From Gallionellaceae bacterium (lineage in GTDB: Bacteria > Pseudomonadota > Gammaproteobacteria > Burkholderiales > Gallionellaceae), in the NCBI GenBank assembly GCA_009773615.1, contig WSYA01000011.1, forward strand, positions 1 through 45,128: DNA of 45,128 nt, written 5' to 3'. Below the pieces are notes generated by a model. The model was not told the origin of the DNA, searched no databases, and saw nothing but the letters and a program-made list of their open reading frames with translations. The translations under genes and the position numbers were made by a program. Below are positions 4,244 to 24,081 of this stretch, one piece after another. Position 1 is the stretch's first letter; each line of letters starts with the position of its first letter.

Positions 4244-4288
4244 TCATCACCCGATAGCTGCCGGTGGCGAACTCACACTGTGTGGACT

Positions 4289-4404
4289 GAGCCGTCGGTC
4301 AAAGAGATTGTGTTGAAGTCAGCTCCGCAGGCCAAAGCAGACTTTAGTAACGAGCGCCGAAACGTCCGCTAAGCATAGCTAAGACGACCTCAGTTCGAGT
4401 CCAG
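4289..4404 (+). repeat. Left copy of about 116-bp inverted repeat bounding the restriction island
   Basis: Bases 4289-4325 are a perfect 37-bp inverse match to 12453-12489. Similarity continues inward to about 4404 (matching 12375 on the other side), with identical blocks such as GCATAGCTAAG and CCTCAGTT separated by substitutions. The copy lies 45 bp after the phoR stop and about 145 bp before hsdM. The two copies face each other around the whole operon. I do not recognise the repeat family. Confidence 0.75.
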
Positions 4405-12374: not shown

Positions 12375-12489
12375 CTGGACACAAACTGAGGTCTCCTTAG
12401 CTATGCGTAGCGGACATGGCGGTGCTCATTGCTGAAGTCGGCTATGGCCGATGAGCTGACTTCAACACAATCTCTTTGACCGACGGCTC
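12375..12489 (-). repeat. Right copy of about 116-bp inverted repeat bounding the restriction island
   Basis: Read on the minus strand this copy matches 4289-4404. The outer 37 bp (12453-12489) are identical and the rest is diverged but clearly alignable. It begins 30 bp after the hsdR stop. The remaining sequence up to 12583 shows no gene; it separates the island from the convergent gene at 12584-14206. Confidence 0.75.
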
Positions 12490-12583
12490 TGCCCACTTCA
12501 GAGACCGTCGAGCTCACGAACTACCTGCCATAAACCGGTCACTGGAGCTGCTGCAACACACGCAAGCTGGCTATTCTGTTTGG

Positions 12584-22995: not shown

Positions 22996-23062
22996 GTTTA
23001 TCTAAAGCCGTTCGCCCTGAGCTTGTCGAAGGGTGAGAATTCTAAATACTTAGAATCAACAT

Positions 23063-23270
23063 CGTCGGGGGTAGCCCGACAGCTAGTCACTTTTTCTTGC
23101 TTCGCCAAAAGAAGGTAACCCAAGAAAAGGCGACCCCGGTTTGCCGCCCCTTTGGGGTTCCCTCGATAATTCGCAAACAAGCAGGGCTGCGGAACTCGCG
23201 CTACGCGCTCAAACAGTCCTCGCCTAAATCTCCGCTTGTTTGCGAATTATCGAGGCGGCGCACAGGGGAG
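23063..23270 (+). repeat. Structured repeat element, copy A
   Basis: Reading inward it contains a small hairpin GTCGGGGGTAGCCCGAC, a degenerate second hairpin ending CCAAAAGAAGGTAA, a GC-rich link, and a 22-bp perfect stem (23161-23182 with 23234-23255). The stem encloses the conserved loop GCTGCGGAACTCGCGCT, and the element ends GGCGGCGCACAGGGGA. The first 75 bp are nearly identical to the outer end of copy B in inverse orientation. Confidence 0.85.
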
Positions 23271-23292
23271 GGAAATTCAAAAACGGTTTTGT

Positions 23293-23319
23293 GTGGGCGT
23301 AACGCCCACTCTCTTTTTT
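23293..23319 (+). terminator. Possible terminator between the two repeat elements
   Basis: GTGGGCG and CGCCCAC pair around TAA and are followed by TCTCTTTTTT. It is about 300 bp after the glycosyltransferase gene and could end its transcript. A second GC-rich stem, 23325-23331 with 23341-23347, follows without a T-tract. Confidence 0.45.
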
Positions 23320-23423
23320 GTTGAGCGGGCGAGCGCAAAGCGCCCGCCTGCAAGGCCAGAGGCCTAATGTTTTTGGGGTTGGATTTGGACTTTAAATTTT
23401 GACTTTAGGGTTTCGCTTCTCTA

Positions 23424-23629
23424 TCCCCTGTGCGCCGCCGAGTAGCGGAAAACGGTCAGGGGTAGTCGGCGAGGACTGTCTGAGCGCGAAGCGCGAGTTC
23501 CGCAGCCGCCTGACCGTTTGAGCAACGCAGGGAACCGCGCAGCGGCGGCGCACCGGGGTCGCCTTTTCTTCGGTTACCTTCTTTTGGCGAAGCAAAAGAA
23601 GGTAACTAGCTGTCGGGCTACCCCCGACG
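23424..23629 (-). repeat. Structured repeat element, copy B (inverted)
   Basis: Read on the minus strand it has the same order as copy A: the GTCGGG/CCCGAC hairpin, a perfect hairpin TTACCTTCTTTTG/CAAAAGAAGGTAA, the GC-rich link, a stem whose arms (23509-23519 with 23450-23460, AAACGGTCAGG on the plus strand) differ in sequence from copy A, the conserved GCTGCGGAACTCGCGCT loop, and the end GGCGGCGCACAGGGGA. Stem position is kept while stem sequence is not. Confidence 0.85.
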
Positions 23630-23676
23630 GTTTTGCTTTGAATCCATACGACGCAATGCCCGTTGGTTATTGCGCC

Positions 23677-24081
23677 CTACGCTTGCTCAAAGGTGTATGT
23701 GAAGGAAACCTGAGCAGGCTCACCATGACCAGCCACATAGCTACCACTGCCACGAAGATTCACTAGATCACCAGTTCCCGAGCCAGGAATAATCGACCAC
23801 GAACTGCGTGCCTTCCCTTCCGAAAAACCTCCCGCGTGTTGAAGGACAAATGTTCCAGTCTTTCCATCTACCGTACCGGAAATTCGCTCTAATCCGACAA
23901 AGGTGGCTGTGCCATGAACGGTGTAGGACATGAGATATTCGATGGTGCTGGTGCCTTCAATGGCTCCAGAATAGGACTGCGTGACCTTTGCGTTACTGAG
24001 CTTTGCACTACCCTCAATTTCTTGATACGTTTTTTCATCCCAACCAGTAATCTGAAACGTGCATTTGGTATCTGTTGCCAT
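23677..24081 (-). CDS. DUF3224 domain-containing protein
   Basis: The 134-residue protein matches the DUF3224 pattern: SYSGAIEGTSTIEYLMSY, then the core strands TATFVGLERISGTVDGKTGT and FVLQHAGGF, then a terminal GSGSYVAGHGEPAQVSFTY stretch. It is a small beta-barrel-like protein with no signal peptide; no function is known. A strong GGAGG lies before the ATG. It is 30 bp downstream of aroC on the same strand, so they may be co-transcribed. The stop codon lies at the edge of an intergenic palindrome, so the last residues may be shaped by the repeat. Confidence 0.85.
   Translation of the reverse strand: MATDTKCTFQITGWDEKTYQEIEGSAKLSNAKVTQSYSGAIEGTSTIEYLMSYTVHGTATFVGLERISGTVDGKTGTFVLQHAGGFSEGKARSSWSIIPGSGTGDLVNLRGSGSYVAGHGEPAQVSFTYTFEQA

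Follow-up and report, generated by a model that had tools for sequence, protein, structure and literature searches.

Several described systems resemble the units reported here. Like them, mobile insertion cassettes (MICs), such as the qnrD and qnrS2 MICs and the TnXax1-related cassettes of Xanthomonas, hold a passenger gene between inverted ends, contain no internal transposase, and are presumed to move in trans. Integron gene cassettes share with them a mostly single-gene cargo, with many orphan and defence genes, and folded sites (attC) in which sequence changes and pairing is kept. The pdif modules of Acinetobacter likewise comprise discrete genes between inverted sites, here for XerCD, with no dedicated recombinase (PMC11705084). 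At neisserial minimal mobile elements, the gene at one intergenic site also differs between strains, and REP sequences and BIMEs, associated with RAYT transposases, are palindromic intergenic repeats that likewise occur as inverted pairs (PMC2817692).

The window, the whole 45,128-nucleotide stretch analysed, comes from a Gallionellaceae draft genome (2.37 Mb, 103 contigs) and contains one such unit between arnT and aroC. Unlike MICs, units of this kind have multihairpin ends of about 200 to 250 bp, a promoter-like motif on the 5′ side, and, when gene-less, a core that is conserved; no target duplication of fixed length was found in 74 units, and no parent insertion sequence with the same ends was found among the fetched units. 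Integron cassettes differ in having one attC site rather than two inverted ends and in being arrayed rather than scattered. No integron integrase was found in any unit, and one closed genome (G046) encodes only two tyrosine recombinases, as many as XerC plus XerD would account for. In contrast to pdif modules, which lie on plasmids and have dif-like sites of 28 bp (PMC11705084), the units were found on chromosomes, and H1, judged by eye, does not seem dif-like. Neisserial minimal mobile elements are bounded by conserved genes, whereas these units are bounded by a mobile repeat pair. REP sequences are high-copy palindromes of about 20 to 40 bp; here, 10 to 17 end matches of about 200 bp each were found per closed genome, and units are low copy, 567 bp or longer, gene carrying, and present in genomes without a Y1 transposase. 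The cassette family appears not to have been described before. Rfam gave no match above the gathering score (only L20_leader, at 26.8 bits versus the 58.7 needed), and the view of the earlier note that no named family exists holds for Rfam and the openly licensed literature; a description may exist in subscription journals or ISfinder.

The earlier note had described two halves with common ends and a common loop and with differing arms, and a repeat search reproduced its coordinates and lengths. The arms of half A pair perfectly over 22 bp (23161-23182/23234-23255) and those of half B over 11 bp (23450-23460/23509-23519), and a 40-nt loop is present in both halves (23185-23224/23468-23507, 95%). 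The second hairpin of B (23573-23586/23593-23606) is a perfect 14 bp, and its A counterpart (23086-23099/23106-23119) is decayed, as had been claimed. The proposed 567-bp palindrome (23063-23629) was borne out, with an outer inverted repeat of 110 nt (23054-23163/23529-23638) that is 87% complementary. The unit exceeds this interval by about 12 to 14 bp per side, since conservation over 143 ends begins at about position -14 from GTCGGG and the alignment of two related units, L041 and L068, begins 12 bp outside it. The description of two head-to-head hairpin elements was correct as to the inverted structure and not as to separate elements: the halves form the two ends, left and right, of a single unit whose intervening cargo slot had been missed. 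The features are as follows.

23049 to 23063, + strand: left outer tail, TTCAAAACCAACACC-like, here ...AGAATCAACATC (start of conservation in 143 ends; L041/L068 boundary)
23064 to 23080, + strand: H1 left, terminal hairpin GTCGGG-GGTAG-CCCGAC (near-invariant in 143 ends; persists as a collapsed 25-bp scar elsewhere)
23086 to 23119, + strand: H2 left, second hairpin, decayed in the window copy (sequence)
23134 to 23268, + strand: left branched stem, with P0 base, H3 (23147-23157), P1 arms, and apical loop
23161 to 23182, + strand: P1 left arm, type A, pairing with 23234-23255 (22 bp, perfect; covaries across ends)
23185 to 23224, + strand: conserved apical loop, left end
23234 to 23255, + strand: P1 left arm, 3′ side
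23269 to 23424, + strand: cargo slot, occupied here by the gene-less core, which contains two inner hairpins (21 further gene-less units have homologous cores)
23293 to 23319, + strand: inner hairpin 1, GTGGGCG-TAA-CGCCCAC, then TCTCTTTTTT, terminator-like (sequence; position kept among gene-less cores)
23324 to 23348, + strand: inner hairpin 2, GCGGGC...GCCCGC (sequence; gene-less core comparison)
23425 to 23558, - strand: right branched stem, with P0 (23425-23440/23543-23558), P1 arms, apical loop (23468-23507), and H3
23450 to 23460, - strand: P1 right arm, type B, pairing with 23509-23519
23509 to 23519, - strand: P1 right arm, other side
23573 to 23606, - strand: H2 right, perfect 14-bp hairpin
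23612 to 23628, - strand: H1 right, terminal hairpin (sequence; 143-end conservation)
23629 to 23643, - strand: right outer tail, GGTTTTGCTTTGAA (sequence; 143-end conservation)

From the outside in, each end consists of an A-rich tail (TTCAAAACCAACACC), H1 (GTCGGG/CCCGAC), H2, and the branched stem, in which the base P0 and the small hairpin H3 accompany variable P1 arms around the conserved apical loop. P1 arms are of type A (window left end) or type B (window right end), and either type occurs on either side of the cargo. Other repeats in the window include a separate REP-like 24-bp inverted repeat (25331-25354/25379-25402, 96%) upstream of an flhA-like gene and a 44-bp inverted repeat (4282-4325 versus 12453-12496, 95% complementary) with 8.1 kb between its copies.

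Both halves recur in the same genome at C4:62941-63160 and 64451-64679, where a 379-aa gene lies within the 1.3 kb that separates them. A 121-bp end model was searched over all fetched DNA, and neighbouring pairs under 4 kb were counted; 133 of 141 pairs pointed inward, 8 pointed in the same direction, and none pointed outward. After deduplication, 74 units remained, with a bimodal size distribution of 36 gene-less (384 to 754 bp) and 38 loaded (988 to 3,603 bp) units. Among 24 gene-less cores examined, 22 were homologous, representing one 130- to 140-bp sequence with two hairpins that lay one way in 11 units and the other way in 11. The window core belongs to this type, with a longer tail, and since 22 of 24 have this core, the window copy represents an established form within the family rather than a random deletion. 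At four places, units have seemingly collapsed to about 25 bp (e.g., CACCGTCGGGGGTAGCCCGACGGTG); we infer that these scars reflect near-precise loss via recombination or slippage at H1, which they fit. Many loci are from metagenome bins, where contigs often end inside these repeats. Near polA, toxin-antitoxin-like pairs (HigBA-like by eye) adjoin or separate ends (L137:6328-7592 and L164:4864-6504); the two ends in L137 point the same way, and cassettes may sometimes chain.

The cargo lies between two inner hairpins, one per side, inside a CGGCGCACAGGGG boundary. In 26 of 42 units, a motif resembling ATAGTCAAAACAATTCGACTCCGGTACATT comes after the inner hairpin that lies 5′ of the gene, as against 1 of 42 with the motif on the 3′ side, and inner hairpins of the type GGGCAC..GTGCCC, followed by T-rich DNA, predominate on the 3′ side (27 versus 5). 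The ATAGTCAAAACAATTCGACTCCGGTACATT-like motif is promoter-like by position only. With this motif before the gene and a terminator-like hairpin after it, a unit could bring its gene to an intergenic location as an expression cassette complete in itself. Exclusivity of the motif to units was considered and rejected, as it has a few occurrences outside units too. The form TCAAA-ACAATTCGACTCCGGTAC(A/C)TT was seen near other ORFs without ends (G050:C1:132663, 1205358, and 1562982; L309; L310), and the motif is also present in G066, a genome without ends; a wider promoter or regulator site may lie behind it.

Loaded units, such as those of related iron oxidisers, carry mostly one ORF and sometimes two, and the cargo proteins are almost all mutually unrelated. 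One 3.6-kb unit contains several metabolic genes (L269:1605-5229); its inward ends enclose alcohol dehydrogenase-like, short-chain dehydrogenase-like, and HxlR-type regulator-like genes (by eye), and it is either a large multigene unit or two adjacent remnants. In a Pfam scan of 40 cargo proteins, about one-third had a convincing domain, mostly of defence or toxin type, and about two-thirds had no known domain. The domains were HNH, Mrr, AbiJ_NTD4, HEPN_RiboL-PSP, DUF4145 (two), DUF4062, DUF2971, DUF2441, RES, KilA-N, AAA_15/21, and BRCT. The L133 cargo is a full-length antiphage protein of the GapS1 family (441.6 bits versus a curated cutoff of 320). PADLOC identified PDC-S32 in L053 (4e-101), a type IV restriction match in L013, a BstA-like protein in L091, and a weak restriction enzyme match in L173. 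Judged from these similarities, the cargo is often a likely phage defence gene, and our impression is one of enrichment for defence genes. Two inward ends 1 to 2 kb apart mark a cassette and can serve as a search key, offering a route to new candidate defence genes.

Cargo differs at shared sites. Between arnT and aroC, the unit is gene-less in the window and in two relatives (L246 and L268) and carries an AbiJ-like gene in another (L053). At mutY-ubiX, units are present at L226 and L233, a collapsed scar in G077, and no unit at L286 to L288, and the units of G050 and G056 carry different cargo there. Whole units also move: over exactly the length of the unit, L041 (beside polA) and L068 (beside sucB), from different genera, are 92% identical in DNA, and their flanks show no identity. 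This is the only clear case of one unit at two unrelated sites; L117/L160, considered as a second, was rejected since the left flanks are homologous. In simple ORF-based calls, which are noisy, the neighbours of the 44 units for which they were clear were convergent in 17, codirectional in 22, and divergent in 5. The earlier note had proposed looking for target duplications at element sites; none of fixed length was found, and no offset or length was enriched in the 74 units. No precise target can be read at the window locus, because the arnT-aroC gap of relatives holds other palindromes. In G002, G004, G006, and G007, this gap is just 85 to 190 bp, and in the window a 134-aa gene (DUF3224-like by eye; 23677-24081, - strand) lies between the unit and aroC. 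Insertion into preexisting palindromes was also considered; L121, L107, L111, and L292 were striking, but inverted similarity between a unit's own flanks was overall not above permutations. Other palindromic repeat families (TTCGACAAGCTCAGG; GGATGGGY...GATACCCATC; GGCGCAATAACCAACGGGCATTGCGCC; CCCTCTCCC...GGGAGAGGG) crowd the intergenic regions that bear units and sometimes form matching inverted halves around a unit.

Folding of the window unit goes far beyond chance. As single-stranded DNA, half A folds at -55.7 versus -34.1 for shuffles (standard deviation, 3.3; z = -6.6), and the 567 nt folded as RNA give a z score of -23. By all three covariation tests, the arms change together. Across 17 type A ends, two-sided changes were found in 10 of 24 pairs, and the covariation score was 0.259 versus 0.075 (standard deviation, 0.013), with 0 of 500 shuffles reaching 0.259; slid controls of the covariation count gave 0.03 to 0.09. 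For type A and type B separately, arms matched their own partners better than in any of 5,000 permutations, and over whole ends, at least two Watson-Crick types were present in 24/60, 23/56, and 18/36 pairs.

The earlier note had read changed but complementary arms as the mark of selection for structure. The complementary change stands; selection as its cause is not secured, since G-U cells are scarce (5 of 408) and many changes are clustered whole-pair transversions, which template switching yields too. Replication template switching can make and maintain hairpins and also produces whole-pair transversions (PMC8794818). That one arm is rewritten from the other in this way, with no selection on the paired structure, is a serious candidate for the covariation, put at somewhat below even odds; the scarce G-U cells and clustered transversions make us lean toward it over selection; against it, each of the three end classes has retained its pairing, as have several hairpins, and the loops are conserved. 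Counts of G-U versus A-C cells indicated no clear RNA strand, the strand test not being decisive. With their many natural versions of a single fold, in DNA or RNA, the ends offer a testbed for selection versus template switching.

Of the 120 family genomes, 57 carried ends, compared with 1 of 368 other genomes drawn from the class; named end-bearing relatives among the matches listed were Sideroxydans, Gallionella, Sideroxyarcus, Ferriphaselus, Methylotenera, Novimethylophilus, and a few Undibacterium. None were found on plasmids, phages, or viral contigs (including IMG/VR), and no transposase or recombinase was found within the 74 units. A resident REP-type or Y1 transposase, as suggested in the earlier note, was not borne out: G056 and G046, both closed and each bearing about 10 ends, are without Y1_Tnp (PF01797), and genomes rich in Y1_Tnp carry no ends. 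Resident IS110 (PF02371) was rejected as a candidate: of eight genomes with ends that were tested, seven lacked it, it was not found in G056 or G046, and all four closed end-free genomes had it. An IS1595 transposase beside an end (L071/L265) was rejected as a truncated end adjoining an unrelated gene. An XerC/D-like tyrosine recombinase gene lies about 0.1 to 2.5 kb from an end or unit at L272 (G046), L230 (G050), and L256 (G039); this proximity, noted in three of the genomes inspected, may mark a common hot spot or be coincidental.

We read the feature, with a probability of roughly 0.7, as a family of non-autonomous, single-gene mobile cassettes with structured ends in the Gallionellaceae and relatives. 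Each would be one mobile unit with two inverted ends and a slot bounded by inner hairpins, which nearly touch in the gene-less form seen in the window; in the loaded form, the slot usually holds one gene, often with the promoter-like motif before it and the terminator-like hairpin after it. Movement of whole units would depend on an enzyme supplied in trans and working at the folded ends, and cargo would also be swapped via homologous recombination between the conserved ends. In favour of this reading are the inward pairing of ends, the bimodal unit sizes, the mostly single and mutually unrelated cargo genes, the differing cargo at shared sites, the polarity around the cargo, the homologous gene-less cores, the defence-like cargo, the covarying structured ends, and the moved unit. 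Counting against this reading are the patchy range, the lack of a transposase or recombinase in the units, the lack of a fixed duplication, the single moved-unit case, the lack of a vehicle among plasmid, phage, and viral records, and the motif outside units. In a rival reading, units never transpose; the ends would be old intergenic repeats, and DNA taken up by the cell would replace only the cargo through homologous recombination, in the style of neisserial minimal mobile elements. Differing cargo at shared sites, mixed end types inside one unit, the missing target duplications, and the missing Y1 or IS110 enzyme in several genomes all agree with this, and ends 75 to 95% identical over 200 bp supply the homology; we nevertheless regard it as unlikely, given the numerous scattered sites per genome and one whole unit with unrelated flanks in different genera (L041/L068).

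Slightly less likely still, a known DDE insertion sequence could supply the transposase, the unit being its mobile insertion cassette or MITE. Inverted ends, gene-less and passenger forms, and no transposase of their own are the pattern of such elements (e.g., PMC3913671), but normal terminal repeats are much shorter and less folded than these ends, and the 74 units contained neither a fixed duplication nor a transposase. A primarily regulatory role, in which the gene-less unit would serve between genes as a bidirectional terminator or a structured RNA, is improbable: diverse cargo and the moved unit are left unexplained and the G-U versus A-C counts favour no RNA strand, even though the inner hairpins are terminator-like, the gene-less core is conserved, relatives have a small terminator hairpin at glmM-pstB where G050 has a unit, and the divergent (promoter) setting is the rarest (5 of 44). 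Least probable by far is a REP/BIME-type element with a resident Y1 (RAYT) transposase as its mover, or a REP-inserting IS110 element. H1 is REP-like and units lie among other palindromic repeats, but copy number is low, Y1_Tnp is missing from G056 and G046, and IS110 is missing from seven of eight end-bearing genomes and present in all four closed end-free ones; past or outside Y1 or IS110 enzymes are possible movers.

As for the mobile-cassette reading, we tentatively suggest that it may represent a new class of gene-cassette mobility, in which host machinery (e.g., XerCD or RecA-dependent exchange) rather than a dedicated transposase would recognise folded, probably single-stranded ends. 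The genes shuttled between genomes, one at a time and in many cases serving phage defence, would travel as ready-made expression units, with the conserved gene-less form as a reserve. If the mobile-cassette reading holds, the cassettes would be an unreported route for the chromosomes of environmental Betaproteobacteria to gain and swap single genes, including defence genes, and such a route would need no plasmids, phages, integrons, or visible transposase.
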